The translations under genes were made by a program, and so were the position numbers. From Flavobacteriales bacterium (lineage in GTDB: Bacteria > Bacteroidota > Bacteroidia > Flavobacteriales_G > Salibacteraceae): 56,218 nt of DNA. Numbering within the stretch: the stretch's first letter is position 1; each line of letters begins with the position of its first letter. Below the pieces are notes generated by a model that did no database searches, was not told the DNA's origin, and saw nothing but the letters and a program-made list of their open reading frames with translations. Where the stretch lies: contig JABJJW010000019.1 of NCBI GenBank assembly GCA_018660685.1, forward strand, positions 1 through 56,218, given 5' to 3'. Below, in pieces: positions 28,801 through 48,176 of the stretch.

Positions 28801-30780
28801 ATGATGAAAACCACAATCAAACTAATGGCCTTCCTTGCTGCTGGAGCATTCTTAGCTTCTTGCGGGGGTGGAGGTCAAAACCAATCTCAATCACAATCTT
28901 CAGGAGCCTTGAACAACTCAAGCGCCGCTGAAGCAGTTTACGTAGCACCAGGAGAACATGATGAATTCTATGAGTTCTTCTCCGGTGGATTTAGCGGACA
29001 GGTCTCGGTAGTTGGACTGCCTTCAGGAAGAATGTTTAGGAGAATTCCTGTATTCTCTGTCGACGCTGAAAAAGGATACGGTTTCGATGAAGAAACCAAG
29101 GCAATGTTGGAGACGTCTCACGGTAGTATTCCATGGGATGACTCTCACCACCCCAAGCTTAGTCAGACTAACGGCGAGATCGATGGAAGATGGTTGTTTA
29201 TTAATGCTAACAACACTCCTCGGATTGCTCGAATTGATCTTACCACCTTTGAAACTGTAGAGATCATTGAAATTCCTCACAGTGCGGGTAACCATAGTTC
29301 TCCCTACCTGACAATGAACACAGAGTATTTGGTTGCTGGTACAAGATTCTCTGTGCCGATTCCACAGCAGGATGTGTCGATTGAAACGTACAAGGAGAAC
29401 TTCCATGGAACGCTTTCATTCATTAGTGTTGACCAAGAAGATGGAGATATGGAAATGGCCTTCCAAATAATGGTTCCTGGCTTCGACTATGATCTAGCTG
29501 CAAGCGGAAAGGGCCCCTCACACGGTTGGACTTTCTTTACAACGTACAATACAGAGAAAGGATCTACCATGAAAGAAGCAACCGCTTCTCAAAATGACAA
29601 AGACTTCATCGCTGCGGTCAACTGGAAGAAAGCAGAAGAGTATCTCGCTCAAGGCAATTTCAAAGAATGGGATGCTGAGTACTACAACAATGAAGTAGAT
29701 CACAATTCTGGAATTGCAACTTCTAAGGTTGGAGACAAAGTAAAAGTGCTTTTCCCAGCTGATTGCCCAGGTTTGATATACTACTTACCAACACCAAAAT
29801 CTCCACACGGAGTTGATGTTAACCCAACGGGTGAGTACATCGTTGGATGTGGTAAATTAAGTGCTGACCTTACAGTTCACTCCTTTAGCAAAATGGAAGC
29901 GGCGATTGCTGCTGAGAGCTTCGAGACTACTATCGAGGGTATTCCTGTGCTTAAGTATGACGAAGTTGTAACTGGTGTCGTTAAGTCCGGAGGCCTCGGT
30001 CCACTCCACACAGAATTTGACGGAGACGGAAATGCATATACCTCATTCTTCATCTCTTCTGAGGTGGTGAAATGGAACGTTGGAACTTGGGAGGTTATCG
30101 ACCGTGTTCCTTCATACTATTCAATTGGTCACTTAAGCATACCAGGTGGAGGCTCAATGAAGCCTTGGAGAAAGTACCTCGTTTCATTGAACAAAATAAC
30201 CAAAGACCGATATCTACCAACTGGCCCAGAGCTTGCTCATAGTGCTCAGCTTTATGATATTACCGGAGATAAGATGAGGCTTCTTTTAGACTTCCCAACG
30301 GATGGCGAGCCTCATTATGCCCAAGGATGTCCGGCTGACTTGATTAAACCGAACACTAAAAAATTCTACAAGCTTTCTGAGAACACTCACCCATACGCAG
30401 TTAAGTCTGAAGAAGATGCGAGGGTCGAAAGAGAAGGGGACGAAGTGCATGTTTACATGTCTTCTATCAGATCTCACTTTGCTCCTGACAACATCGAAGG
30501 TGTTAAGGTTGGTGACAAAGTTTACTGGCACGTAACAAACCTTGAACAAGACTGGGATACGCCACACGGATTCGCGGTCTTGGGTGCCCAAAACTCTGAA
30601 ACCTTAATAATGCCAGGTGCCACACGAACATTGTATTGGGAGCCAAAAGTACCTGGGGTCTTTCCATTCTATTGTACAGACTTCTGTTCGGCGCTCCACC
30701 AAGAAATGCAGGGTTATGTTAGAGTTTCAGCTGCTGGTTCTGATGTAGAACTCAGGAGTTGGCTTGGAGAGCAGGATTAA
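28801..30780 (+). CDS. nosZ: Nitrous-oxide reductase, clade II type
   Basis: 659 aa. NosZ reduces N2O to N2 in the periplasm. The N-terminus is a lipoprotein/Sec signal (AFLAAGAFLASCGGG), not a twin-arginine one, which marks the clade II (atypical) enzymes. The beta-propeller keeps the CuZ histidines: WDDSHHPKLS, SPHGVDVNP, GPLHTEFDGDG, YSIGHLSI, ELAHSAQLY and GEPHYAQ. The C-terminal cupredoxin domain keeps the CuA site: TPHGFAV and FYCTDFCSALHQEMQGY (C-x3-C-x3-H-x2-M). All ligands expected for catalysis are present. It is transcribed from the FNR-type promoter at 27640 and followed by nos maturation genes. Confidence 0.98.
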   Translation: MMKTTIKLMAFLAAGAFLASCGGGGQNQSQSQSSGALNNSSAAEAVYVAPGEHDEFYEFFSGGFSGQVSVVGLPSGRMFRRIPVFSVDAEKGYGFDEETKAMLETSHGSIPWDDSHHPKLSQTNGEIDGRWLFINANNTPRIARIDLTTFETVEIIEIPHSAGNHSSPYLTMNTEYLVAGTRFSVPIPQQDVSIETYKENFHGTLSFISVDQEDGDMEMAFQIMVPGFDYDLAASGKGPSHGWTFFTTYNTEKGSTMKEATASQNDKDFIAAVNWKKAEEYLAQGNFKEWDAEYYNNEVDHNSGIATSKVGDKVKVLFPADCPGLIYYLPTPKSPHGVDVNPTGEYIVGCGKLSADLTVHSFSKMEAAIAAESFETTIEGIPVLKYDEVVTGVVKSGGLGPLHTEFDGDGNAYTSFFISSEVVKWNVGTWEVIDRVPSYYSIGHLSIPGGGSMKPWRKYLVSLNKITKDRYLPTGPELAHSAQLYDITGDKMRLLLDFPTDGEPHYAQGCPADLIKPNTKKFYKLSENTHPYAVKSEEDARVEREGDEVHVYMSSIRSHFAPDNIEGVKVGDKVYWHVTNLEQDWDTPHGFAVLGAQNSETLIMPGATRTLYWEPKVPGVFPFYCTDFCSALHQEMQGYVRVSAAGSDVELRSWLGEQD

Positions 30781-30889: not shown

Positions 30890-31492
30890 ATGAAACCATT
30901 AACTCGAGCCTACACTCTTATTGCCGCAGTTGTTCTTGCTGGTATCTACTTTCAACCCTTGTGGTACATTGCCTTGGAGGCTCCTCAGTACCCCGAAGGG
31001 ATCGAGATGTATATCTGGGTAAACAAGATAACTGGACATGAAGAAAACACACTCCAAAATATCAACATCCTCAATCACTACATAGGGATGCAGATGATTG
31101 AACCAGACTCAATCCCTGAGCTTAAAATCTTTCCTTACATAGGAGGATTATTAATTCTACTTGGACTTTTGGTTTGGTGGAAAAATGAACCAAAGTGGAT
31201 GTACGTATACGCCTCGTCACTGTTGGTTCTTAGCTTGCTTGGAATATTTGACTTTTGGCTTTGGGAGTATGATTATGGACATAATCTTGATCCCCATGCT
31301 GCAATTCAGATCGAAGGCATGGTCTATCAACCGCCTTTACTTGGATCGAAGTGGTTATTGAACTTTAAGGCGGTCTCGTATCCACATATTGGCGGAATAT
31401 GTTTGGCTCTATCTTGCTTCCTGATGTTTTGGGCAATGATCCATGAGAAGTGGTATGTCCGAAGTTCACGAATTCCAACATCCAATGACTAA
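30890..31492 (+). CDS. Nos-cluster membrane protein of unknown function
   Basis: 200 aa with about four membrane helices (~7-25, 85-103, 108-126, 165-185) and an extracytoplasmic loop between the first two. Contains YIWVNKITGHEENTLQNINI and LNHYIGMQ, plus KWLLNFKAVSYPHIGG. It lies between nosZ and nosL and overlaps nosL by 8 bp. Its position matches that of the polytopic NosB of epsilonproteobacterial clade II clusters, but I cannot assert homology. His and Met in the loop regions could bind copper. Confidence 0.8.
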   Translation: MKPLTRAYTLIAAVVLAGIYFQPLWYIALEAPQYPEGIEMYIWVNKITGHEENTLQNINILNHYIGMQMIEPDSIPELKIFPYIGGLLILLGLLVWWKNEPKWMYVYASSLLVLSLLGIFDFWLWEYDYGHNLDPHAAIQIEGMVYQPPLLGSKWLLNFKAVSYPHIGGICLALSCFLMFWAMIHEKWYVRSSRIPTSND

Positions 31493-31922
31493 GATTACAA
31501 GCCAAACAATCTTATTGCTGTCTCTCGTCTTCCTTTTAGGATGCAGCCGAACCATTGAACCAATTTCCTATGGTCAGGACGATTGCCATTGGTGTCAAAT
31601 GCGAATCATGGATCCAAAATTTGGCAGTGAGGTGGTGACCAAAAAAGGACGCACCTACAAATTTGATTCAGCTGAATGCTTATTGCATTATTGGCATGAC
31701 ACAGAAGATGAAGTTGATCAAGCTGTCGTAACTGATTTTGAACGACCTCAGAAGTTCATTGATGCAAGAGAGGCTTGTTATCTGGTTTCTGAAGAAATGC
31801 CTAGCCCGATGGGAGGATTCCTGAATGCATTTTCGCATTCTGATTTGGCGTTAGTACATCTCGAAACCAAAGCAGGTAAGCTTTATACTTGGGAGGAAAT
31901 TCTTTCCGAATACAAGAAGTGA
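31485..31922 (+). CDS. nosL: NosL-family copper lipoprotein
   Basis: 145 aa from ATG 31485, which opens the lipoprotein signal MTKITSQTILLLSLVFLLGC; earlier starts lie in the upstream gene. The copper-binding motif is DDCHWCQMRIMD, followed by the family core YKFDSAECLLHYW and PMGGFLNAF. NosL delivers Cu(I) to apo-NosZ for CuZ assembly. The stop overlaps the nosD GTG. Confidence 0.92.
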   Translation: MTKITSQTILLLSLVFLLGCSRTIEPISYGQDDCHWCQMRIMDPKFGSEVVTKKGRTYKFDSAECLLHYWHDTEDEVDQAVVTDFERPQKFIDAREACYLVSEEMPSPMGGFLNAFSHSDLALVHLETKAGKLYTWEEILSEYKK

Positions 31923-33178
31923 AAACCGTCGTCACAATCTTAGGCGTTTTATGTTCTTTCATGCTCAATGGAAGAACTCTCGAAGTATGTCCCAGCTGTG
32001 AGTTCAAGGACGTGCAAAGTGCATACGCATTTGCTTCAGACGGAGATGTCCTTTTGATAAAACAGGGTGTCTACACTGTTTCGGAGTTGATCGTTGAAAA
32101 AGCAATTTCGATTCGAGGCGAAGAGGGGGCCATTTTCGATGGAAATGGATCGACCATACTATACATCCATCACGACAGTGTTTCAATTTCTGATATTCAG
32201 TTAAGAAATGTATCCACCAACTACATCGAAGACCGAGCTGCTCTGAAATGCAATAATTCTGATTACTTGGTGATCAGAAATGTAGTTGTACGTCATTCCT
32301 TCTTCGGAATTCTAGTTGAAAAGAGCAAGCATGGAATCATTGAGAATTGCGATGTAAAAGGCGACGCAACTACGGATTCATACCTAGAATCTTCCAATGG
32401 CAATGCAATCCATCTTTGGTATTGCAAAAACATGACAATTAGGAACAATCAGATTCGAAACCACCGCGACGGCATTTACTTCGAATTCGTTGATAAAAGC
32501 AAGATTGAGAATAATTGGAGCGAGTCTAATATGCGATATGGACTGCACTTTATGTTTTCACACGAAAATGAATACCGCGGAAATACATTCCATAAAAATG
32601 GGGCCGGTGTTGCCGTAATGTATTCAACCAAAGTTGTGATGGAGAATAACCAGTTCGTTGATAATTGGGGGACATCTTCTTATGGATTGCTGCTTAAGGA
32701 CATAACTGACTCGCGATTAAGTGAAAATCTATTTGCGAATAATACAATTGCCATAAGCGCCGATAACACCATGAGATGTTCAATTGAAAATAATCGATTT
32801 GATGGCAATGGATACGCGTTTAGAGTGATGGGTAATTGCACGGATAATGTGATTTCGGCCAACGACTTTTTACAAAACTCATTCGATGTAACGACCAATT
32901 CAAGGTCGAATTACAATGATTTTACAGGGAACTTCTGGGAAGAGTACAGCGGGTACGATTTGAACAGTGATGGTATTGGTGATATTCCATTTCGACCTGT
33001 GAAGTTATTTACATACATCATCGCTCAGTCGCCGGCTTCGATCATTTTGATGCGAAGTACATTTATAGACCTATTGAATCTTGCCGAAAAAGTCACTCCA
33101 GTATTGACGCCAGAGAGCCTGGTAGATATCAAACCTCAAATGAAGCTAATCAATGATCACCTTAAACTCAGTTTCTAA
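31919..33178 (+). CDS. nosD: NosD copper-maturation beta-helix protein
   Basis: 419 aa from GTG 31919 (GTGA overlap with nosL). A short signal sequence (VVTILGVLCSFML) precedes a right-handed parallel beta-helix made of ~22-residue repeats (NGNAIHLWYCKNMTIRNNQI, NHRDGIYFEFVDKSKIENNW, MRYGLHFMFSHENEYRGNTF). NosD works with the ABC transporter NosFY in CuZ-centre assembly of NosZ. The C-terminal segment IIAQSPASIILMRSTF is the usual family end. Overlaps nosF by 26 bp. Confidence 0.95.
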   Translation: MKTVVTILGVLCSFMLNGRTLEVCPSCEFKDVQSAYAFASDGDVLLIKQGVYTVSELIVEKAISIRGEEGAIFDGNGSTILYIHHDSVSISDIQLRNVSTNYIEDRAALKCNNSDYLVIRNVVVRHSFFGILVEKSKHGIIENCDVKGDATTDSYLESSNGNAIHLWYCKNMTIRNNQIRNHRDGIYFEFVDKSKIENNWSESNMRYGLHFMFSHENEYRGNTFHKNGAGVAVMYSTKVVMENNQFVDNWGTSSYGLLLKDITDSRLSENLFANNTIAISADNTMRCSIENNRFDGNGYAFRVMGNCTDNVISANDFLQNSFDVTTNSRSNYNDFTGNFWEEYSGYDLNSDGIGDIPFRPVKLFTYIIAQSPASIILMRSTFIDLLNLAEKVTPVLTPESLVDIKPQMKLINDHLKLSF

Positions 33179-33854
33179 ACGGTGGGGGAGGAATGAAGTC
33201 CTCCGAGACATTGACCTGACCATCGAGGAAGGGAGGGTAATTAGCATGCTCGGACCGAACGGTTCAGGCAAGTCAACTCTCATCAAATGCATCCTGAATT
33301 TGGTTCGACCAAACTCCGGAACGATAACGGTCAATGGTATTCCATCTACGAGCGTAGAATCGCGAAAAGACATCTCCTACATGCCCCAGGTCGCAAGGTT
33401 TGCGGAGAACATTAGTGCAATTCGCTTGATCCAATTGATCAGTGACATCCGCGGGGTAGATGCTGATCCAACTCAATTGATTGAATACTTCAATTTAGAA
33501 GGTCATATGAGCAAGAAGTTGGGTGTTCTCAGCGGTGGTTCACGACAAAAGGTAAGTGCGGTTTTAGCATTTCTTTTTGACAGTCCCATTATTATTCTTG
33601 ATGAGCCAACCGTTGGACTTGATCCGGTTTCAAGGGTAAATTTCAAAAGACTAGTGCTCGAGGAAAAGGAAAGAGGCAAGACTATATTCTTCACAAGCCA
33701 CATTATGAGCGATGTAGAAGAAGTTGCCGACGAAATCGCCTTTCTTCTAGAGGGTAAAATTGTGTATCAGGGCAAACCCGAAGAGCTCATAAAATCAACG
33801 AACCAACCCAACCTAGAGCAAAGTATTGCTCATCTCCTTAAAGCTGAAGCATGA
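33153..33854 (+). CDS. nosF: NosF ABC transporter ATPase
   Basis: 233 aa. Walker A GPNGSGKST, Q-loop YMPQVAR, signature LSGGSRQK, Walker B IIILDEPTVGLDP and switch His in FFTSHIM are all present. With NosY and NosD it provides sulfur or other factors for the Cu4S site of NosZ. Overlaps nosY by 4 bp. Confidence 0.95.
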   Translation: MITLNSVSKRWGRNEVLRDIDLTIEEGRVISMLGPNGSGKSTLIKCILNLVRPNSGTITVNGIPSTSVESRKDISYMPQVARFAENISAIRLIQLISDIRGVDADPTQLIEYFNLEGHMSKKLGVLSGGSRQKVSAVLAFLFDSPIIILDEPTVGLDPVSRVNFKRLVLEEKERGKTIFFTSHIMSDVEEVADEIAFLLEGKIVYQGKPEELIKSTNQPNLEQSIAHLLKAEA

Positions 33855-34639
33855 AAACGATCTGGAGCATATTCAAGTTTGTCTTTATGGACAACCTGAG
33901 GTCGGTTTGGGCCATAGCTTATACACTGTTTATTGCCCTCTCTACCTACGCCTTAGTCTACTTCACGGGGTCATTTACTAGGGGCGTGGTTAGTATCATG
34001 AACATCATCATTCTGATTACTCCATTGGTGAGTACGATGATGACAAGCATGTACTTTTTCAACAAGACTGACTTTCTTTTCCTTCTCTTGGCACAGCCAA
34101 TCAAAAGGTCACACACTTTTATCGGAATGTATATGGGAATAGCAGTGATGTTAGCCTTGAGCGTTGGCTTTGGCCTGGCACTCGGAATGGCAATGTCGGC
34201 GCCCAGAATTGAAGACATTCAAGTGCTCTTGCTGCTAATGTTGACGGGTGTTCTTCTCTCATTCATCTTTTCGGGATTGGCGTTTTTAATCGCGATTGCC
34301 ACTCGTGATAAGCTCAGAGGAATTGGAATGGCATTGTCGCTATGGCTTTTCATGGCTGTCATCTATGACGGCTTGATGCTCATGTACTTCATTGTTTTTT
34401 CAGAATATCCGATTGAGGAACACGCCATCATATTGAGTCTATTAAATCCAATAGACCTTTCACGGATATTCATCATGTTACAATTAGATGTTTCCGCATT
34501 GATGGGCTATTCCGGAGCTGTGTTCCAGAAATTCTTTGGAACCGGATTGGGGGTTGGAGTTTCCATTGGAGCAATGCTACTTTGGATCGTTGTTCCACAA
34601 TTTCTCTTTGTTTACAGAGCCAGAAGGAAGGATTTCTGA
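33851..34639 (+). CDS. nosY: NosY ABC transporter permease
   Basis: 262 aa with six membrane helices. Family features: FIALSTYALVYFTGS, LLFLLLAQPIKRSHTFIG (a typical QPI/R segment after helix 2), SFIFSGLAFLIAIATRDK and a VYDGL-like MAVIYDGLML. It is the partner of NosF. The final nos gene before pdxH, 31 bp away. Confidence 0.93.
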   Translation: MKTIWSIFKFVFMDNLRSVWAIAYTLFIALSTYALVYFTGSFTRGVVSIMNIIILITPLVSTMMTSMYFFNKTDFLFLLLAQPIKRSHTFIGMYMGIAVMLALSVGFGLALGMAMSAPRIEDIQVLLLLMLTGVLLSFIFSGLAFLIAIATRDKLRGIGMALSLWLFMAVIYDGLMLMYFIVFSEYPIEEHAIILSLLNPIDLSRIFIMLQLDVSALMGYSGAVFQKFFGTGLGVGVSIGAMLLWIVVPQFLFVYRARRKDF

Positions 34640-34670: not shown

Positions 34671-35321
34671 ATGAGCGAAAATTTAGATGAAATGCGCAAT
34701 TCGCGTCGAGATTTCGATCACGGCGAATTGAATGAGAATAACCTCCCTCAGGATCCTTTGTTCTTGTTTAAGAAATGGCTCGAGGAAGCGATTATGGGTG
34801 AGGTTGAAGACCCCAACGCCATGACGGTTTCGACTGTTGATTCCGATGGCATGCCTAGATCAAGAGTTGTCTACCTGCGGGATCTAGTTCAAGAAGGATT
34901 CATCTTCTACACAAACTATACTAGCAACAAAGGAGAACAGATTCGAGACTACGGAAAAGTCGCGCTCAACTTTCTGTGGACCAAGCTTGATAGACAAGTA
35001 CGTATAACTGGGATTGCACAAAAGATACCAGCTGAAATGTCTGACGAGTACTTTGCTAAACGACCGAGAGAGAGTCAAATAGGTGCCTGGGCTTCACCTC
35101 AAAGCAAGCAGCTTTCAAGCAGACAGCAGCTCTTGGAATCAGTCGCTAAATTTGAAAAGGAATTTGAAGGGAAACCAATTCCTAGACCTCCCCATTGGGG
35201 CGGGTATGTTGTTATTCCAAATTCGATCGAATTTTGGCAAGGCAGGACAGCCCGACTTCATGACCGGTTTTTGTTTGAGCTGGGCAAGGATAACTGGAGG
35301 ATAATCAGATTAGCTCCTTAG
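34671..35321 (+). CDS. pdxH: Pyridoxamine 5'-phosphate oxidase
   Basis: 216 aa from ATG 34671 (the open frame extends into nosY but the family start MSENLDEMRNSRRDF fits here). FMN enzyme that oxidises PNP/PMP to PLP with O2. Motifs: NAMTVSTVDSDGMPRSRVVY, IFYTNYTSNKG, ASPQSKQLSSR, and the C-terminal FWQGRTARLHDR...WRIIRLAP. It follows nosY on the same strand with a 31-bp gap and could be co-transcribed. The next gene on this strand, tnaA, needs PLP. Its 3' end overlaps the Rrf2 gene by 12 bp. Confidence 0.95.
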   Translation: MSENLDEMRNSRRDFDHGELNENNLPQDPLFLFKKWLEEAIMGEVEDPNAMTVSTVDSDGMPRSRVVYLRDLVQEGFIFYTNYTSNKGEQIRDYGKVALNFLWTKLDRQVRITGIAQKIPAEMSDEYFAKRPRESQIGAWASPQSKQLSSRQQLLESVAKFEKEFEGKPIPRPPHWGGYVVIPNSIEFWQGRTARLHDRFLFELGKDNWRIIRLAP

Positions 35322-35753
35322 CTTCCTGTTCAGGTGAATTTTACCTTCTATTAGATCAACCGCGAGGTCAGCGATATGTGTGGACTTGAGCATGTGAGCT
35401 TGACGATCCCGAATATCTGAGAATGAGTTGTGAATTGGACAAGGTTGAGTATCGCTGCACTCATGAAGCCCCAATACGCATTCTTGATAATACTTATCGC
35501 CATCAACTTCAACCATCACATCCCAAAGCGTTAACGACTTTGAATAATCAAGGGAATAGCCACCATTTGGTCCCTTTATGCTTTGGATGAGATTGCGCTT
35601 AGTAAGAGTCTGTAAAATATTGGATGTGAATCTTTCGGGGATATCGAGCTGGGAAGAAATCTCTTTAATGCCTACACGCTGAGTTCCCTGCTCATTTTGA
35701 GCAGCAATGAATACGATTGATCGTATCGCATATTCGCATGCTTTCGAGAACAT
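35310..35753 (-). CDS. Rrf2 family Fe-S regulator (NsrR/IscR-like)
   Basis: 147 aa from ATG 35753 (MFSKACEYAIRSIVFIAA is the family N-terminus). Winged helix with LDIPERFTSNILQTLTKRNL and GPNGGYSL, then three cysteines in ECVLGLHECSDTQPCPIH (C-x6-C-x5-C), a layout that binds a [2Fe-2S] or [4Fe-4S] cluster. Relatives sense NO (NsrR), Fe-S status (IscR) or redox state. Lying between nos and tnaA and transcribed away from both, it is a candidate NO or redox sensor for this island. A 6-bp-arm palindrome sits 39 bp upstream. Confidence 0.9.
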   Translation of the reverse strand: MFSKACEYAIRSIVFIAAQNEQGTQRVGIKEISSQLDIPERFTSNILQTLTKRNLIQSIKGPNGGYSLDYSKSLTLWDVMVEVDGDKYYQECVLGLHECSDTQPCPIHNSFSDIRDRQAHMLKSTHIADLAVDLIEGKIHLNRKLRS

Positions 35754-35791
35754 TATATCATCTTTTAATTTGAACCTTAGAAGTCTCAATG

Positions 35792-37758: not shown

Positions 37759-37793
37759 GTCTCGCTGTTTTGAAAAAACCTAAAACCTTTGTC

Positions 37794-40379
37794 ATGCAAG
37801 AAACCCTCGAGAAAGACATATCCGTTCGGTCAGTCACGGATAATCGATCAAAATCAATCACATATTCTTACGATGAGGTTTTAGCGGAATCGACTGTCTA
37901 TTTTGAAGGAGACGAGCTTGCGGCGACCGTTTGGATGAGCAAATACGCTTTGAAAGACTCAGATGGCAAATACTATGAGAAAAGCCCTGATGATATGCAT
38001 CATCGTCTAGCTTCTGAGATCGCGCGTGTGGATGGCAAGCACCCTCACCCATTGGAAGAGAGTGACTTTTTTGAAGCCTTGGCGCGATTCCAATACATTA
38101 TTCCTCAAGGTGGACCTATGTCCGGTATCGGTAATGATCATCAGGTTGTATCCCTTTCGAATTGCTTTGTAATTGGTCATTCCACACAGGGAGATTCGTA
38201 TGGTGCTATCATGCAAACGGATCAAGAACAGGTGCAGTTGATGAAGCGGAGAGGAGGAGTTGGCCACGACCTTTCACATATTCGTCCAAAGGGATCTCCC
38301 GTTAAGAATAGTGCTCTAACCTCAACTGGTGTTGTCCCTTTTATGGAACGGTTCAGCAATTCAACGCGTGAGGTGGCGCAAGATGGTCGTCGGGGAGCAT
38401 TGATGCTCAGCATTTCCATTGAGCATCCAGATGCCGAAGATTTCATTGATGCCAAGTTGGATCAGTCAAAGGTCACAGGAGCAAATATTTCGGTGAAAAT
38501 CACCGATGATTTTATGCAGGCCGTTATCAAAGGGGATGCTTTCATCCAGCGATTTCCAGTAGGCTCAAATAATCCTACCACGACCAAAGAAATCGACGCT
38601 AGTTCACTCTGGGAAAAGATAGTACACAACGCATGGAAGTCCGCTGAGCCAGGCATCTTGTTTTGGGACACTATAAAACGAGAATCTGTTGCTGACTGCT
38701 ATGAGGATGAAGGGTTCGGAACTGTCTCTACAAATCCGTGTGGGGAGATACCCCTTTGTCCTTATGATTCGTGTCGATTACTTGCCATTAACCTACTAAG
38801 CTTCGTGAATAATCCATTTTCCGAAGAGGCTGAGTTTGATTTTGTGAAATTCAAGCGATATGTGCGAATGGCGCAACGCATAGCTGACAATATCATTGAT
38901 TTAGAACTTGAGAAAATTGATTCAATCCTTGAAAAGATCGGCAATGACCCAGAGTCTAAGGAAATTAAACGGACCGAGAGAAATCTGTGGTTAAACATCA
39001 AAGAGAAATGTCAAAATGGTCGACGTACCGGGACAGGTATCACAGCTGAAGGAGACATGCTTGCTGCGCTCGGTTTAACTTATGGGTCTCAGGAATCAAT
39101 AGAGTTTTCGGAGAAAGTTCATCGAACGCTTGCTATCGAGGCATACAGAAGCTCTGTTGAACTAGCTCGCGATCGAGGTTCATTCCCTATTTATGATGCT
39201 GCTCGCGAGGTGGAAAACCCATTTATCCAGCGATTGCTTGAGTCAGACCCTAACCTCGCTCAAATGATGGCCAAACATGGCCGCCGCAACATTGCAATCT
39301 TAACGATTGCGCCGACCGGAACTACAAGCATGATGACCCAGACTTCATCTGGTATCGAGCCTGTTTTTATGGTGGCGTACAAAAGACGAAAGAAGATAAA
39401 CCCAAATGATAAAAACGCTCGCGTGGACTTTGTAGATGAGGTCGGAGATCATTGGCAAGAATACAATGTCTTCCATCGCACATTTGAGAAGTGGCTTCAA
39501 CTGAAAGGATATAATCTCGATGAAGTTAAATCCTTTGATCACGACCGCTTGGAGAAGCTAATCCAGGAGTCTCCGTATAAGAACGCGACCGCTCAGGATG
39601 TTGATTGGGTAAAAAAGGTTGAGCTTCAAGGAGCAATTCAAAAATGGGTTGATCACTCGATCAGCGTAACCGTCAATATTCCAAATGAAGCCACCACGGA
39701 ACTTGTAAATCAGATTTATCAAGAGAGCTGGGAGGCTGGGTGCAAGGGGATCACAGTTTACCGGGATGGATCTAGATCAGGTGTGCTAGTCTCTGATGAT
39801 AACAAGGATGATGCTAAGTCAATTTCAGATTATTCCGTACCGCCTAAACGACCAGAAACACTCGATGCAGATGTGGTAAGATTTAACAATGGAACTGAAC
39901 CATGGATATCGGTTATTGGGTTGATGAAGGATGAGCCATATGAAATATTTACTGGTAGGGCAGAAGATAGTTTTCATCTCCCTGAATCTGTGACTACAGG
40001 ATTTGTTAAGAAGGTAAAGGACGCAAACGGAAAGAGTCGTTATGACTTTATATACCTCGATCGAGATGGCTACGAAATCATCCTCGGTGGTCTTTCGAGG
40101 TCTTTTGATCCCGAATATTGGAACTATGCAAAGCTTATAAGCGGAGTGCTCAGACATGGAATGCCATTGCCCTATGTAGTTCACATGGTTGATAACCTCC
40201 ACCTAAATGATGATTCGCTAAATACTTGGAAGAGCGGAGTCATTCGCGGTTTGAAGAGATATATTCAAAGCGGCTCTGAACCCGTGGATAATGTTTGTCC
40301 AAAATGTGAGGAAGAGGCATTGGTTTATGAGGAAGGATGCCTAAATTGTAAGAGTTGTGGGCATTCAAAATGCTCGTAG
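37794..40379 (+). CDS. nrdJ: Adenosylcobalamin-dependent class II ribonucleotide reductase
   Basis: 861 aa from ATG 37794. The upstream TTG at 37770 would leave almost no leader behind the -7 element at 37751. It makes deoxyribonucleotides without oxygen, using B12 to generate the thiyl radical. Motifs: VSLSNCFVIG (redox Cys), MKRRGGVGHDLSHIRPKGSP, NPCGEIPLCPYDSCRL (radical Cys and Glu), ILTIAPTGTTSMM, and the PNEATTELVNQIY segment near ~640. The C-terminus is a Cys-rich tail with CPKCEEEALVYEEGCLNCKS that reduces the active site. Followed 14 bp later by nadA. Confidence 0.95.
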   Translation: MQETLEKDISVRSVTDNRSKSITYSYDEVLAESTVYFEGDELAATVWMSKYALKDSDGKYYEKSPDDMHHRLASEIARVDGKHPHPLEESDFFEALARFQYIIPQGGPMSGIGNDHQVVSLSNCFVIGHSTQGDSYGAIMQTDQEQVQLMKRRGGVGHDLSHIRPKGSPVKNSALTSTGVVPFMERFSNSTREVAQDGRRGALMLSISIEHPDAEDFIDAKLDQSKVTGANISVKITDDFMQAVIKGDAFIQRFPVGSNNPTTTKEIDASSLWEKIVHNAWKSAEPGILFWDTIKRESVADCYEDEGFGTVSTNPCGEIPLCPYDSCRLLAINLLSFVNNPFSEEAEFDFVKFKRYVRMAQRIADNIIDLELEKIDSILEKIGNDPESKEIKRTERNLWLNIKEKCQNGRRTGTGITAEGDMLAALGLTYGSQESIEFSEKVHRTLAIEAYRSSVELARDRGSFPIYDAAREVENPFIQRLLESDPNLAQMMAKHGRRNIAILTIAPTGTTSMMTQTSSGIEPVFMVAYKRRKKINPNDKNARVDFVDEVGDHWQEYNVFHRTFEKWLQLKGYNLDEVKSFDHDRLEKLIQESPYKNATAQDVDWVKKVELQGAIQKWVDHSISVTVNIPNEATTELVNQIYQESWEAGCKGITVYRDGSRSGVLVSDDNKDDAKSISDYSVPPKRPETLDADVVRFNNGTEPWISVIGLMKDEPYEIFTGRAEDSFHLPESVTTGFVKKVKDANGKSRYDFIYLDRDGYEIILGGLSRSFDPEYWNYAKLISGVLRHGMPLPYVVHMVDNLHLNDDSLNTWKSGVIRGLKRYIQSGSEPVDNVCPKCEEEALVYEEGCLNCKSCGHSKCS

Positions 40380-42864: not shown

Positions 42865-42895
42865 TGATCTTAGGGTTTGTATATTGCTGTATATC

Positions 42896-43627
42896 ATGAA
42901 TGTAGAAAGGTTGATCTCGTGTTGTTCCGTACTAATTCTTTTACAACTTGGCGCTTGCAAAAAGGACGACATTGCTGATGAAGTCTCGGTTGTCATTGAG
43001 ATAAGACACGAGGTTGATGGAGCCGAGTTAGCAATGAAAGGCACGACGTACATCAACCAAGCGGGAAACGAGTTTGACGTATCTAAACTTCAATATTATA
43101 TATCAGGGATTGAGTTTGTTGGCAACGAATTCAACGCGGTCTTTGACGAAGAGGCTTTCTATGTTGATGCCGAAGACAATTCAACTTATGGCATTTCATT
43201 GAGTCTTTCGCCGGCAACTTATTCTAAGATGAAGTTCAGTATCGGAGTCATTCCAGATTTGAATGAGCACGAAGCAATTCCGAAGACGATTGAGAATACG
43301 AACATGATGTGGCCAGAGCCAATGGGCGGCGGATACCACTTTTTGAAATTGGAGGGACACTATAGGAACCATGAAGGAGAAAGTGATGGATACGCATTGC
43401 ATGTTGGAAATGATGAGAATCTAATTGAAGTTGAGTTGGAAAATTCAATAGCCATTAATGATGAGTCACCAATTGTAATTCTGACAATGGACGTTTCGCA
43501 ATGGTTCAAAAATTCCAATGAATATGATTTAAATGATCAGAATTACTCTATGGGCAGCGGTCCGTTGATGAGGCAGATATCAGAAAATGGCAGGAATGTA
43601 TTTTCCATTTCTCTTGAAAATAAGTAG
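42896..43627 (+). CDS. MbnP-like copper-binding lipoprotein
   Basis: 243 aa from ATG 42896 with lipobox LLQLGAC. The body follows the MbnP family: FDVSKLQYYISGIEFVG, then LSPATYSKMKFSIGV, then MMWPEPMGGGYHFLKLEGHY. In characterised MbnP, a tryptophan before the GY(x)F segment is oxidised to kynurenine by the diheme partner MbnH and then helps bind copper. Here W139 occupies that place; only one other Trp is present. The MbnH-like gene begins 3 bp after the stop. Copper binding is inferred from family and context (nosZ nearby). Confidence 0.85.
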   Translation: MNVERLISCCSVLILLQLGACKKDDIADEVSVVIEIRHEVDGAELAMKGTTYINQAGNEFDVSKLQYYISGIEFVGNEFNAVFDEEAFYVDAEDNSTYGISLSLSPATYSKMKFSIGVIPDLNEHEAIPKTIENTNMMWPEPMGGGYHFLKLEGHYRNHEGESDGYALHVGNDENLIEVELENSIAINDESPIVILTMDVSQWFKNSNEYDLNDQNYSMGSGPLMRQISENGRNVFSISLENK

Positions 43628-43630
43628 GTG

Positions 43631-44665
43631 ATGAGACTAGAGTTGACCTTTGCAATTATTCTTGTGATCACTGGCGCCGGAACGTCCATTATCGGATGTA
43701 AGAACAATGTAGCAGAACCTGAACCCAATGATTTGCCGGTATTTAATCCTACTAGGGTGGAACTTGAATACCCTAGTTGGTTTCCTGAAATGCCACTGGC
43801 AACTACAAATCCTCTCACTGTAGAAGGCATTGAGCTCGGACGGAAATTGTACTACGACCCGTTACTTCATCCACAGGGCACGATGTCCTGTTCATCTTGC
43901 CATCAACAAGACCAAGCATTTACTATTAATACTTCTGGGACGGCCGTCTTAGCTCATGTAAACCTCGGTTGGTCGAATACCTTCTTATGGGAAGGAGGTG
44001 TCGAAGGGACAATTGAGGACATTATGCTTTTTGAGGTTGAAGAATTTTTCAAAACGGACGTCTCGAGAATTGAGACTAAGAGTGAGTACCAATCCATGTT
44101 TTATGCTGCATTCGGGGAGCGCGATATCGACGAAGAATTGTGTGCCATGGCATTAGCCCAATTCTTTCGGACCATGATTTCATCGAATTCTAGATTTGAT
44201 CAGTATTACCCTGGAGATATCCAACCCAATGCCGATGAACTAGAAGGCTACTACATATTTAATTCAGAGCGGGGCGATTGTTTTCATTGCCATGCCCCAC
44301 CACTTTTCACGGACAACGAATTTCACAACATTGGATTGGATTCAACTTTTGATGAATCGAATAGTGGTCGCTTCAATGTGACGGGAAGCGAATTGGATCG
44401 CGGAGCTTTTAAAACTCCAACGCTTAGAAACATAGAACTCACTGCACCTTACATGCATGACGGAAGGTTTAGCACGCTCGAGGAAGTGATTGAACACTAT
44501 GACAATGGGGTGCATTCGTCAAACACACTCGACCCAATTCTCACTAAGGCAGGAAAAGAGGAGGGATTAAATCTGACTGATGGAGAAAAGGCAAGTTTAA
44601 TTGCGTTTTTGATATCGCTAACGGATCCAACGTTCACTTCAGACTCAGAGCTGAGTGAGCCATAA
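43631..44665 (+). CDS. MbnH/MauG-like diheme peroxidase-family protein
   Basis: 344 aa. N-terminal signal with a lipobox-like SIIGC. Two c-heme sites, CSSCHQQDQAF and CFHCHAPPLF, plus GRKLYYDPLLHPQG, FKTPTLRNIELTAPYMHDG and an ENLTLEEVIEHY-like STLEEVIEHYDNG segment, all standard for the bacterial cytochrome c peroxidase/MauG family. Members oxidise protein residues (MauG, MbnH) or remove H2O2. The tight link to the MbnP-like gene makes tryptophan-to-kynurenine maturation the likeliest job; classic peroxidase is the alternative. Confidence 0.88.
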   Translation: MRLELTFAIILVITGAGTSIIGCKNNVAEPEPNDLPVFNPTRVELEYPSWFPEMPLATTNPLTVEGIELGRKLYYDPLLHPQGTMSCSSCHQQDQAFTINTSGTAVLAHVNLGWSNTFLWEGGVEGTIEDIMLFEVEEFFKTDVSRIETKSEYQSMFYAAFGERDIDEELCAMALAQFFRTMISSNSRFDQYYPGDIQPNADELEGYYIFNSERGDCFHCHAPPLFTDNEFHNIGLDSTFDESNSGRFNVTGSELDRGAFKTPTLRNIELTAPYMHDGRFSTLEEVIEHYDNGVHSSNTLDPILTKAGKEEGLNLTDGEKASLIAFLISLTDPTFTSDSELSEP

Positions 44666-44670
44666 AGTGG

Positions 44671-45990
44671 TCAGCCGAGTAGTCTTCGTAGAGCCGAATA
44701 TATTAAGGTTAGGAGCCCAATCATCAAGAAGAAACCTGCACAGGCAAAGGTGAATAGGTAAGGCTCAGCATCGCTCATTACGGATGCGAAGGCTTGGTTG
44801 CTATTTGAGCCTTTCACAATTCCAGCTCCCAACAATGCAAACCAAAAGACAGCCAAACTTATTTGAGTAATCCAAAAGCCAACTGATGTCGTTTTGTCCC
44901 CATTAAACCCTTCTTTCGCTGGCATCAATTCACGAATGATGAAATAAACGGATGCCATTAAAATCATGGTGTTTATTCCGATTGTACTCCCCATCGAATG
45001 CGCAACCGTAATGTGGGTGCCATGTGTGAAAATGTTGATCGCCGGGATGGATATGGCTAAGGCAAGGGCGAGATTAAGAAAGATCCATATTTCGGAAGCG
45101 AAAAGGAATCGGTAGGCGAATAGATGCTGGTGTTTTTGGTAAGAACTCAATGTGCTTCTCCAATCCCAAATGATTTTTCCCAGGATGAAAAGTTCAGTCA
45201 TGCTCACCAAATAGGCGAAGTGTCTTATCCACGGTGCAGAAGGGACAAAGTAGGTGTGATGAGCCCAGCCGAACAACAAATTGGTGAATCCAAGAAGAAA
45301 CAATCCAAAGGCCATTTTTGATTTAGCGAGATCCTCGTTTCCGCTGATTTTGGTCATTAGAAAAATAGCCGTGCCATACACCATCATATTCCACGAACCG
45401 ACTAAGGCGCCATACGCCTTCCATTGAATGGTGATTTCTCGAATAATGTTCTCTGTAAAGTGTGGGAATATCCATAGATAAGCCTCGGATAATGTCAAGA
45501 AAAAGAACACTATTCCAGTTCCCCACATCCACATATAGACGGGCCATGGACCGGTTTTTTTCCTAAGAGTTATGAAATAATTGACTCCGAAGAAAATCCA
45601 AGAAACGAATATGGGTATCGCAAGAACAGGAGGGAACTCCCAATATTCTCTGCCTCCGAATTTCCCGCTCACATAAGCTGCTAGTATTAGAAGGCCAGTA
45701 ACGAGGAAGAATGCAAAATGCAGTTTAATCAAGCCTCGAAAGCGCCATTGAAGATTAGAGTAGCGAGGTACGTAGTAATAGATTCCTCCGGCAGCAGTGC
45801 TAAATATCCAAGCCACAACCATAGAAACATGTAAGGGTCGGGACTTAAAGAAGGGTAGGGCCTGGATGAAGTCAGGATACAGAAATTGGAACGCAGCAAC
45901 TAAGCCGAAACAAATGCCTCCGGCCAATGAAAACAATCCCAAGACGACAAACCAAAGGCCTTCATTGCCCTTTTTCTTCATATGCTCCAT
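44671..45990 (-). CDS. NorB-like heme-copper-superfamily subunit with altered ligands
   Basis: 439 aa from ATG 45990, about 12 membrane helices, overlapping norC-like by 29 bp. Preserved: SRPLHVSMVVAWIF (helix II, heme b His54), FGWAHHTYF (His244-His245, metal-B ligands), THGTHITVAHSMGSTIG (helix X, heme b3 His331), and Glu266. Against cytochrome-c NO reductase (H-LWVEG...; HH; AHGH) the helix VI His is Tyr193, the next Glu is Val197, and the second helix X His is Met333. It likely reduces NO to N2O using electrons from the NorC-like cytochrome, as the product then feeds NosZ. The replaced ligands make the exact chemistry uncertain. No norQ/norD is nearby. Confidence 0.8.
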   Translation of the reverse strand: MEHMKKKGNEGLWFVVLGLFSLAGGICFGLVAAFQFLYPDFIQALPFFKSRPLHVSMVVAWIFSTAAGGIYYYVPRYSNLQWRFRGLIKLHFAFFLVTGLLILAAYVSGKFGGREYWEFPPVLAIPIFVSWIFFGVNYFITLRKKTGPWPVYMWMWGTGIVFFFLTLSEAYLWIFPHFTENIIREITIQWKAYGALVGSWNMMVYGTAIFLMTKISGNEDLAKSKMAFGLFLLGFTNLLFGWAHHTYFVPSAPWIRHFAYLVSMTELFILGKIIWDWRSTLSSYQKHQHLFAYRFLFASEIWIFLNLALALAISIPAINIFTHGTHITVAHSMGSTIGINTMILMASVYFIIRELMPAKEGFNGDKTTSVGFWITQISLAVFWFALLGAGIVKGSNSNQAFASVMSDAEPYLFTFACAGFFLMIGLLTLIYSALRRLLG

Positions 45991-46375
45991 ACCACGAGAA
46001 ATTATAGTTTTCGGGAGTGTACTTTCCATGAGCATCGACGAACTCTAGGAACTTGACCAGTTGATCTACCTCGGTTTGTGTGAACTGAAAATTGGGCATT
46101 TTCTGAGTTCCAAACTCAATAAAAACACGTGCATAATCTGAGCCTTTGCCTTCGACAGATATAACGTTCGTCAAATCGGGCCCCATGTAACCTCCAAGTC
46201 CATAGAACTGGTGGCATGCTACACAATTGTTTTCTCGAAATAATCTCTGGCCAGAAGCAACATCTGCATCATGTACTATCGGAAGAGGGGTAGCAGTTCC
46301 ACTAGTATAAGCCACAACTGAGTAAATGACGCCAATAGCGCACAAGGTCCAGTATATGATGTGCTTGACTTTCAG
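45962..46375 (-). CDS. NorC-like membrane-anchored cytochrome c
   Basis: ~137 aa. A single N-terminal helix (KHIIYWTLCAIGVIYSVVAY) is followed by one c-heme site NNCVACHQFYGLGGYMGPD, then MPNFQFTQTEVDQLVKFL with the Met ligand, then a WYGAYEEKGQ end. This matches the NorC subunit of cytochrome-c NO reductases. The anchor starts at a CTG (46375) one base after the upstream stop; the first standard codon, TTG 46345, would cut the helix. Translation is probably coupled to the upstream gene. Confidence 0.85.
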   Translation of the reverse strand: MKVKHIIYWTLCAIGVIYSVVAYTSGTATPLPIVHDADVASGQRLFRENNCVACHQFYGLGGYMGPDLTNVISVEGKGSDYARVFIEFGTQKMPNFQFTQTEVDQLVKFLEFVDAHGKYTPENYNFSWYGAYEEKGQ

Positions 46376-46376
46376 A

Positions 46377-48176
46377 CTATGTCAAATGATTAAGTGAAAG
46401 TTTTGTAGAATTCAATGCAAGCTGAAGCGCATCGAGGTCGGCTCGAAAACATTTCTCTTTCTCGACAATCGAATTCGAAACTTCAGAGATGAGCTGAGAG
46501 TAGTAATCGATGCCTGAATTGAGATTGGATCGAAACGCTTCTAAATATTGAATCTGTTTTTGGCTGATCTCGGATTTTTGTTCTTCCCATTTCTCCTCAA
46601 AATAGTCCACGTACATTTTGAGTTCTTTCAAAAACATATTAGGACGATTGCGTTGGTTAAGAACACTGGTTCGTCCGTAAATATGATCAACCATATCTTG
46701 AAGCGACACGGAGTTGGAGAAGTAGGCCAAATTGGGCCCGGGGCAAACTACCACACCTTCCATTCCCTTGTACATCTCTAGTTTGTAATTCTTCAGCGAG
46801 GCATTGGCTAACCCAACACACAAACAGATTTTCTCAGTCACCTTCTTAACTGCAGAGGCGAGCATCCCATCATCCTCAATCGTTGTTTTGAGCTCGGCAA
46901 TCTTTTTCTTTTGGTAGCTATTGGAAGCTGTGCATAGTGGCTTATCACCGAATTCAGTGTTAAAGGCGAGATGTTTCTTAAAGCATGGTGAACCAGGCTT
47001 CCCAGATTCAATTCTTGAATCCCTTTGCACTTCGGAGGAGGTATGCCTAACCGTGTTAAAACGAACACCAAGGGGCGATACATCGCTTAAAAAGTAATCT
47101 TCCTCCTGAGACTCTTCCAATAATTCCAGTGTGTCTATATCAATATTCACCGCCTCAGGAACCATCAGAAATGGAGATCCCCAACCTACTGATTTAGCAC
47201 CATACTCCGTTCGGAGCAAGTTGTGTTCTAATTCATTCCCAACACCTCCTTGAACGGAAATGTCAATGTCTAGCTCGGAAGGAATGTGATCTATTTTATC
47301 TTCAATGGCCGAAGCGTATAAGGAGAACAGTTCGGTCTTCAAATCGGGCATATTTGAATTGAACTCATGCATAATAGGCCCGAGTAAATGTCCTTGAGTT
47401 GCAAACGCATGCCCTCCACAATTCAAACCAGATTCGATTCGATATTCATTGACCCACAATCCTTTTTTGGCGAGCATCTTACCCTGAACTTGTGCTGACC
47501 GGAAGTCACTAACCTTCAGAATGATCCTTTTGCTGAACTCCCCAATCTCATTTGGTAGAAACTCCTTAAACGAAGACATATATCCAAAGAGCCTAGGATT
47601 TAATCCTGCTGACAGAACCACCGAAGATTTAATTTTACTTGTAACGAAACCGCGAAGAGCAGCATGAGCCTCATTGAATTCGATTGGTTTTGGGGTCCTA
47701 TTTGAATCCAAGGAAGGACCATCGATTTTAGTCATGATGTTGACATCAATGGAGCCAGTGCTCATCAGACCAAGTAGATCTTGTTGTAATCTGGGTTTAT
47801 CGTGTTCTCCAGCTTTCAGCATTAACCGGTATTTCTCTTTGAGCGGAGAATCGGGGAGCATCTCGAAATATTTTGAAAGCTCACTCCCCGAATTGAATCC
47901 AGAAGATTTGAGATTCTTAAAGTTGATATCCACAATATCTTTTACGAGGTTGAGGTATGCTGAAATTCTTCTCGCTCGTCCGTCGTTGTCAGAAATTGGA
48001 ATTAATTCAAAATCAAGATCATACTTCTTCGCATAGTGCATGCGCATTTTTTCGGTCAGACTATGATCAATTATGGATATGACTGAGTCAATTCCATAGT
48101 GAGCTACTCTGATCGGTGTATCGATCGTGTAGCTTGTTCCCATTACAGGAATGTGAAATGTGTGTGGTTTTGTCAT
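46377..48176 (-). CDS. Unidentified 599-aa protein in the norCB operon
   Basis: No family recognised. The N-terminus (FHIPVMGTSYTIDTPIRVAH then YGIDSVISIIDHSL) and a later stretch DISVQGGVGNELEHN followed by YGAKSVGWGSPFLMVPEA resemble the start and phosphate-gripping loop of FMN-binding TIM barrels. Distinctive motifs: SGLNCGGHAFATQG (Cys253), GSPCFKKHLAFN (Cys398), KPLCTASNSY (Cys415), KICLCVGLANAS (Cys451, Cys453) and VVVCPGPNLAYFS (Cys478). The last ~90 residues look helical or coiled. No signal peptide, so cytoplasmic. It is 11 bp after the TDO gene and its stop is 1 bp before the norC-like start. A flavin and/or Fe-S enzyme is the best guess, at low confidence. Confidence 0.8.
   Translation of the reverse strand: MTKPHTFHIPVMGTSYTIDTPIRVAHYGIDSVISIIDHSLTEKMRMHYAKKYDLDFELIPISDNDGRARRISAYLNLVKDIVDINFKNLKSSGFNSGSELSKYFEMLPDSPLKEKYRLMLKAGEHDKPRLQQDLLGLMSTGSIDVNIMTKIDGPSLDSNRTPKPIEFNEAHAALRGFVTSKIKSSVVLSAGLNPRLFGYMSSFKEFLPNEIGEFSKRIILKVSDFRSAQVQGKMLAKKGLWVNEYRIESGLNCGGHAFATQGHLLGPIMHEFNSNMPDLKTELFSLYASAIEDKIDHIPSELDIDISVQGGVGNELEHNLLRTEYGAKSVGWGSPFLMVPEAVNIDIDTLELLEESQEEDYFLSDVSPLGVRFNTVRHTSSEVQRDSRIESGKPGSPCFKKHLAFNTEFGDKPLCTASNSYQKKKIAELKTTIEDDGMLASAVKKVTEKICLCVGLANASLKNYKLEMYKGMEGVVVCPGPNLAYFSNSVSLQDMVDHIYGRTSVLNQRNRPNMFLKELKMYVDYFEEKWEEQKSEISQKQIQYLEAFRSNLNSGIDYYSQLISEVSNSIVEKEKCFRADLDALQLALNSTKLSLNHLT

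Follow-up and report, generated by a model that had tools for sequence, protein, structure and literature searches.

A 56,218-nt stretch of DNA from a Flavobacteriales bacterium (the window) encodes a NorB-like heme-copper subunit I that has lost two of the six signature histidines of its superfamily, one ligand of metal B and one of the low-spin heme, and that almost certainly represents a real, distinct and conserved lineage. Together with the NorC-like cytochrome encoded next to it, the protein may form an NO-consuming complex belonging to a C-type heme-copper lineage of its own, a reading which we prefer but hold at somewhat less than even confidence. The genes and residues concerned are collected in Table 1.

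Table 1. Positions in the window of the genes and codons discussed in the text
Feature	Position	Strand	Basis or remark
nosZ, Sec-type	28801..30780	+	TIGR04246 over cut-off; same island
nosL-, nosD-, nosF- and nosY-like genes	31443..34639	+	NosD by NCBIfam; the others presumed, from matching order elsewhere
Rrf2-family regulator	35310..35789	-	in island
Ribonucleotide reductase, presumably class II	37770..40379	+	recurrent companion
MbnP-like and MbnH/MauG-like pair	42884..44665	+	below NCBIfam cut-offs; convergent to NorB-like gene
Divergent NorB-like heme-copper subunit I, 439 aa	44671..45990	-	ORF, Pfam, alignment, AlphaFold2 model
Codon of Met333, replaces low-spin heme His	44992..44994	-	Met in 90/90
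Codon of His331, high-spin heme ligand	44998..45000	-	90/90
Codon of His326, invariant in family	45013..45015	-	non-His in 16 cNOR/qNOR/cbb3 references
Codon of Glu266, equivalent of cNOR Glu280	45193..45195	-	HH+21 in 90/90
Codons of His244-His245, helix VII metal-B pair	45256..45261	-	90/90
Codon of Asn201, replaces cNOR Glu215	45388..45390	-	90/90
Codon of Val197, replaces cNOR Glu211	45400..45402	-	phmmer and alignments
Codon of Tyr193, replaces helix-VI metal-B His	45412..45414	-	never His in 90
Codon of His54, helix II low-spin heme ligand	45829..45831	-	90/90
NorC-like c-type cytochrome (CxxCH, Met), 127 residues	45962..46345	-	upstream of and overlapping 5' end of NorB-like gene
599-residue ORF	46377..48176	-	no Pfam or NCBIfam match

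Read from an earlier ATG than the one used in the initial annotation, the NorB-like ORF spans 44671-46035 and encodes 454 residues. Its product is a membrane protein by sequence and has the COX1 fold of the heme-copper oxidases (Pfam COX1, 109.3 bits against a cut-off of 34.8); NCBIfam holds no fitting model, the best match being ccoN with 41 bits against a cut-off of 583. Among solved structures, phmmer matched cNOR only, namely 3o0r_B (E 6e-10) and 4xyd_A (E 3e-7). Pfam assigns cytochrome c domains to the NorC-like ORF. When the gene directly upstream of the NorB-like gene was examined in 80 loci, with CxxCH itself as the criterion, such a heme c partner, as in cNOR, was found in 77, within about 60 bases in 75; one of the three remaining loci ends there with its contig. 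A Met-Pro resembling that of NorC is invariant in all 78 of these CxxCH proteins, the window's included. The NorC-like partner noted in the initial annotation is thus present at nearly all loci, and electron entry of the cNOR type appears to be retained.

Ligand positions were located by aligning 26 family members jointly with 8 cNOR, 3 qNOR and 5 cbb3 sequences in MAFFT and by phmmer alignment to P. aeruginosa NorB (3o0r_B); beyond the general six-histidine scheme, the roles given to individual cNOR residues are those which we take them to have. The joint alignment runs without gaps from Lys191 onward, with a single-residue gap just before Lys191. His54, His244, His245 and His331 match the ligands of the references. 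Tyr193 aligns with the metal-B histidine and Met333 with the helix-X histidine of the low-spin heme, both of which are His in 16/16 references, and Val197 and Asn201 align with the two helix-VI glutamates present in 11/11 NORs. Since the THGT motif, common to the family and cNOR, anchors helix X, the register that puts Met333 on the heme-His position is fixed. Glu266 lies exactly 21 residues past the second His of the HH pair in 90/90 family members, as does the Glu of the 11 NOR references, whereas 5/5 cbb3 sequences have Leu there; this fixed spacing and the joint alignment settle its register, which was one column off in an alignment with 4 cNOR sequences.

Over 90 relatives, N201, H54, H244, H245, E266, H323, H326, H331 and M333 are found in 90/90, and Glu169, Lys191 and Asn340 are likewise invariant, so that every member keeps four of the six signature histidines. 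Position 193 is occupied by Y60 N12 G10 L4 M3 A1 and position 197 by V58 T30 I2; the helix-VI His and Glu ligands of the FeB of cNOR are therefore absent throughout (0/90 each), no invariant His occurs in helix VI of the family alignments, and Met333 takes the place of one histidine of the bis-His low-spin heme b. The initial annotation had reported precisely these replacements, with Tyr193 and Met333 for the two histidines, Val197 and Asn201 for the glutamates and the remaining His ligands and Glu266 kept, and it is borne out: no relative among the 90 has the usual ligands. That Tyr193 itself serves as a ligand is not supported, since position 193 varies (Tyr in only 60/90, though never His) while Met333 does not; Tyr193 is thus not a fixed new ligand, and Met333 may be one to the heme. 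His326, new to the family, sits 7 residues ahead of Met333 and, from helix geometry, probably on the same helix face.

In an unrooted maximum-likelihood tree with 26 of the 90 family members, 3 qNOR and 5 cbb3 sequences (qNOR rows reduced to what follows residue 255, and the Bernardetia cbb3 row cut off after residue 490), four groups were resolved, the family (100/99), cNOR, qNOR and cbb3. One split (100/99) separated cNOR and qNOR from cbb3 and the family; the tie to cbb3 that it implies is unsure because long branches meet in the tree. Topologies constrained to unite the family with cNOR or with qNOR were rejected (p-AU 0.0015 each; 9 family members). That the family is not an offshoot of cNOR, with which it does not cluster, is indicated more firmly by these sequences than its tie to cbb3. 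The earlier suggestion of a distinct type can accordingly be sharpened to a clade of its own outside cNOR, qNOR and cbb3, these being the groups in the tree; Nod is missing from it because the viral contigs searched yielded no Nod sequence, nor a qNOR relative. An AlphaFold2 model built from 76 sequences (alignment A2; pLDDT 89.3, pTM 0.92) replaced an earlier one from 10 sequences (pLDDT 80.3); A2 and the deeper model omit 14 of the 80 loci, presumed to be near-duplicates or fragments. By VIA-align the deeper model was tied between cNOR 4xyd_A (Z 40.7) and cbb3 (Z 40.2), followed by A-type oxidases and qNOR with Z near 30. Its least certain parts are the N-terminus and residues 329-334, which include the helix-X ligands and have pLDDT under 50.

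The gene was found in 10 of 60 genomes in a first search, the window's own included, all ten with the altered ligands (alignment A1). A contig scan by tblastn (E 1e-3) gave 536 stretches, the best 80 of which were used and came from Bacteroidota, Gammaproteobacteria (several titled Woeseiaceae), Alphaproteobacteria and one Chloroflexota. The family is carried by 61 of 296 Bacteroidia genomes at least 90% complete, membership being set at E under 1e-80 (weakest 1e-82; next match 6e-21), and these genomes hold no intermediates between members (at least 41% identity) and the next matches (at most 24%, E under 1e-12). A search of 94 genomes across the phylum gave 2 members, both already in the set, and none outside the class in the 71 genomes listed; none appeared among the 30 of 178 plasmid records listed (22-24% identity), in the viral contigs, or in 12 other genomes of the window's genus. 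Its absence from these congeneric genomes marks the gene as patchy, and it may have moved between lineages.

Co-occurrence was assessed in the 296 Bacteroidia genomes. NosZ, by a model of the Sec-dependent type, and NirK were counted above family cut-offs, with five weaker NirK matches and a split NosZ (G264) scored as absent; qNOR assignments relied on match score and length, G089 has a fragmentary cNOR, and five B-type matches at 32-35% identity were excluded from the eNOR count. On this basis there were 104 carriers of NosZ, 16 of cNOR, 11 of qNOR-like proteins, 24 of NirK, 4 of NirS and 5 of eNOR. The family and NosZ occur together in 52 genomes, the family only in 9, NosZ only in 52 and neither in 183, i.e. 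NosZ is present in 52/61 family genomes against 52/235 others (OR 20, p 9e-20, uncorrected for kinship), and half of the NosZ genomes (52/104) lack the family. Both genes are on one contig in 13 genomes and within 15 kb in 12 of the 52, the window's included, spread over eight family groups as judged by their codes, against about 0.45 genomes expected within 15 kb if placed at random in 3.5 Mb (uncorrected for kinship). The link of the family to Nir is weak (11/28 Nir genomes, OR 2.8), whereas that of cNOR is strong (OR 50, both uncorrected for kinship), a contrast that argues against NO consumption. So does the fact that other NORs are not avoided, the family being unrelated to cNOR (OR 1.3, p 0.75) and positively linked to qNOR (OR 5, p 0.012; both uncorrected for kinship); all five eNOR-bearing genomes also carry it. 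Further points against NO consumption are that Nir, NosZ, cNOR, qNOR and eNOR are all missing from 7 of the 61 family genomes, and that in five family genomes outside the sample this NosZ type was found in the Bacteroidota and Chloroflexota ones (2/5) and not in the 3 proteobacterial ones.

Three COX1 proteins are encoded in the genome from which the window comes; length and score class them as an A-type oxidase, a CcoNO-like protein and the NorB-like protein. Neither NirK nor NirS was matched in this genome at E 1e-30. Besides the genes in Table 1, the window holds a tryptophanase-like gene and genes which we take to be nadA and nadB. Eleven NosZ-linked loci in other genomes contain recurrent mixes of the window's genes with the NorB-like gene; they were picked for having NosZ and the family on one contig and give no measure of frequency. 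In the 80 loci taken regardless of context, many of them short (5 kb on both sides in 41/80), the neighbours included NosZ in 2, NarG in 7, RIC-like in 8, eNOR in 4, Crp-like in 23 and ribonucleotide reductase in 13; the seed names RIC, Lrp and Crp are our own presumptive identifications, and a truncated-hemoglobin-like seed had no match in the 80 loci. A tested N-oxide gene was found in the flank of only 19 of these 80, which again argues against NO consumption.

Several other features of these neighbourhoods were observed. The Rrf2-family regulator of the island might be an NO sensor of the NsrR type. The MbnP-like/MbnH-like pair, the latter of the MauG di-heme type, recurs near the NorB-like gene elsewhere, and the 599-residue ORF is again adjacent to nos and NorB-like islands in further Bacteroidota. 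Of 25 proteobacterial loci, 7 have a gene for a CtaA/COX15-like heme A synthase close to the NorB-like gene. At locus L036, Pfam matched COX15, SCO1, FTHFS, COX1 and Cytochrome_B, and HemN-like and eNOR-type genes are also present.

Eight genomes with a Nir match showed no NOR-like heme-copper protein other than that of the family, an absence which covers heme-copper NO reductases only. Five are Bacteroidia (G043, G110, G212, G220 and G309), searched with cNOR and qNOR queries at E 1e-12, an eNOR query at 1e-40 and the COX1 list, and three are proteobacterial genomes of unstated completeness (G333, G343 and G345). Both cd1 matches of G333 hold an in-frame stop, and in G343 a contig ends in a COX1 fragment of 176 codons that was left unclassified. 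Of the additional COX1 proteins in G043 and G309, the former looks cbb3-like and the latter's sequence was not read. In the 19 genomes with both Nir and NosZ, the family is present in 5 of 8 without cNOR, qNOR and eNOR against 4 of 11 with one of them, a contrast that is not significant (p 0.37), and three genomes have none of the four; both results count against NO consumption.

A single match to the cNOR query, at 21-24% identity, was obtained in each of 20 genomes (19 proteobacterial and 1 Chloroflexota) and taken as the family gene, two being confirmed by coordinates; in 12 of these genomes, all proteobacterial, NirS is presumed from a Cytochrom_D1 match. The idea that the family provides the sole NOR of its proteobacterial members was at first supported and then weakened by an eNOR-type protein in 6 of the 12 cd1 genomes (G326, G327, G329, G335, G338 and G340), a B-type protein with the eNOR mark of Gln four residues past the helix-VI His. 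Like-scoring proteins occur in G336 and G346 (sequences unread) and a partial one in G339, and none is in the COX1 lists of G333, G343 and G345. Woeseiaceae are described, in passages of PMC12175321, as carrying NorBC and releasing N2O, and the family may be behind that description.

The family differs from eNOR, which shares certain genomes with it and adjoins the NorB-like gene at the four loci counted above. In eNOR, as defined in a portion of PMC8756737, the helix-VI His is retained, Gln (at His+4) replaces Tyr, and subunit II is a cupredoxin, whereas the family has no helix-VI His and its upstream partner is a cytochrome c; an excerpt of PMC11388526 treats eNOR, bNOR, sNOR, gNOR and nNOR as B-family relatives. 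The eNOR-type proteins (L155-L163, with H-S-S-Q-Q in helix VI) were found by search in 5/296 Bacteroidia genomes. The three that were read, L155 (G290), L156 (G269) and L157 (G067), have H-F-K in the heme-ligand helix against H-F-H in six proteobacterial eNOR-type proteins, so that Lys may replace His at the low-spin heme in these proteins; the NorB-like family is present in each of the three genomes. L163 (G338:C47:293502-294680) and L165 (G333:C79:18764-19942) are short COX1-like proteins, some 460-540 residues long, that score low against COX1, contain an H-Y-H motif and lie near eNOR or A-type oxidase genes.

The reading that the complex consumes NO is based on a fold like that of cNOR and cbb3, the NorC partner, the NOR-type Glu266, the association with NosZ and, in certain genomes, with eNOR and Nir, and the eight Nir-bearing genomes that showed no other NOR-like heme-copper protein; the loss of the FeB His and Glu211 of cNOR speaks against it. 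To judge from the residues retained, the metal site would be altered, perhaps to His/His/Glu, and the low-spin heme would possibly be His/Met. Electrons would pass from a periplasmic donor through the heme c of NorC to a heme b on His54/Met333 and then to a high-spin heme b on His331, where NO would bind and be reduced to N2O; a second metal, if any, would be held by His244, His245 and perhaps Glu266, or else NO might be reduced at the high-spin heme alone. In N2O-respiring bacteria the complex would thereby remove NO and feed N2O to NosZ. With Met333 as a ligand, the low-spin heme would presumably have a higher potential. The most specific version of this proposal, a fourth C-type lineage that reduces NO at a heme with a two-His-one-Glu metal beside it, receives its electrons via a His/Met low-spin heme b and is widespread in N2O-respiring Bacteroidota and sediment Proteobacteria, is unlikely to hold in all its parts; to our knowledge, this set of ligands occurs nowhere else in the superfamily.

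The main rival, not a probable one but the one that has to be weighed most carefully, is a complex without catalysis that serves N2O respiration as a membrane electron conduit or an NO-responsive cytochrome, its second heme perhaps six-coordinate through His244/His245. It would account for the loss of the helix-VI His and both glutamates in 90/90 members, it fits a family that follows NosZ rather than Nir, and the location beside eNOR at some loci indicates that the protein is no simple NOR substitute. However, Glu266 and both histidines of the HH pair are invariant, and why a pure electron conduit would need them is not obvious; moreover, half of the NosZ genomes do without the family.

That the protein is an O2 reductase related to cbb3 seems rather improbable. 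Subunit I of cbb3 (CcoN) is its nearest group in the unrooted tree and its equal match with cNOR in structural Z, and shares Asn340; yet the long branches weaken that placement, cbb3 has His at both lost positions (a bis-His low-spin heme and a three-His CuB, found in none of the NorB-like sequences) and Leu in place of Glu266, and the upstream NorC-like gene, the NOR-type Glu and the NosZ association all point away from it. An ordinary cNOR with shifted residues, in which another histidine supplies metal B or the low-spin heme, is a poorer prospect. The invariant His326 and His323 in helix X could be cited for it, and the family does share with cNOR NorCB (3o0r, 4xyd) the NorC-NorB two-gene order, the fold, the helix-II His, the high-spin helix-X His, the HH pair and the equivalent of Glu280. 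Nevertheless, helix VI offers no invariant His, THGT places Met333 on the heme His, the helix-VI metal His and the equivalents of Glu211/Glu215 are missing, identity to the cNOR matches is only 21-24%, and the family forms a separate clade whose union with cNOR was rejected. Dismutation of NO to N2 and O2, as proposed for the NO dismutases (Nod), is barely credible: Nod too is a NOR relative with an altered metal site that has lost one metal-B His, but by its description in part of PMC10286720 this is His560 of the HH pair, replaced by Asn, whereas here HH is intact in 90/90 and the helix-VI His is lost, and Nod is of the qNOR type (according to passages of PMC3413370). The grouping of qNOR with the family was rejected, and qNOR is one fused polypeptide of about 750 aa that has no NorC of its own, whereas the NorB-like protein has 439 aa and a separate NorC.

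No description of the lineage was recognised in the open literature searched, which excludes the main NOR-type survey (Murali 2024 PNAS). Within that literature the lineage appears to be new, being set apart from Nod, bNOR, sNOR, gNOR and nNOR by their descriptions, and it may already have been described. The six histidines serve as the signature of the heme-copper superfamily (passages of PMC3413370), and a family that drops two of them and fixes Met at one suggests that the scaffold tolerates another cofactor arrangement. Surveys may label such proteins norB or cbb3, or discard them for missing ligands; a 2025 survey, in the sections consulted, excluded Nor candidates without conserved ligand-binding domains and reported that 9% of denitrifying Bacteroidota have nir and nosZ but no nor (PMC12569097). 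The NorB-like family may be an overlooked microbial route for handling NO and, if the most specific version of the NO-reducing proposal is true, would supply the missing NO step in some nor-less denitrifiers.
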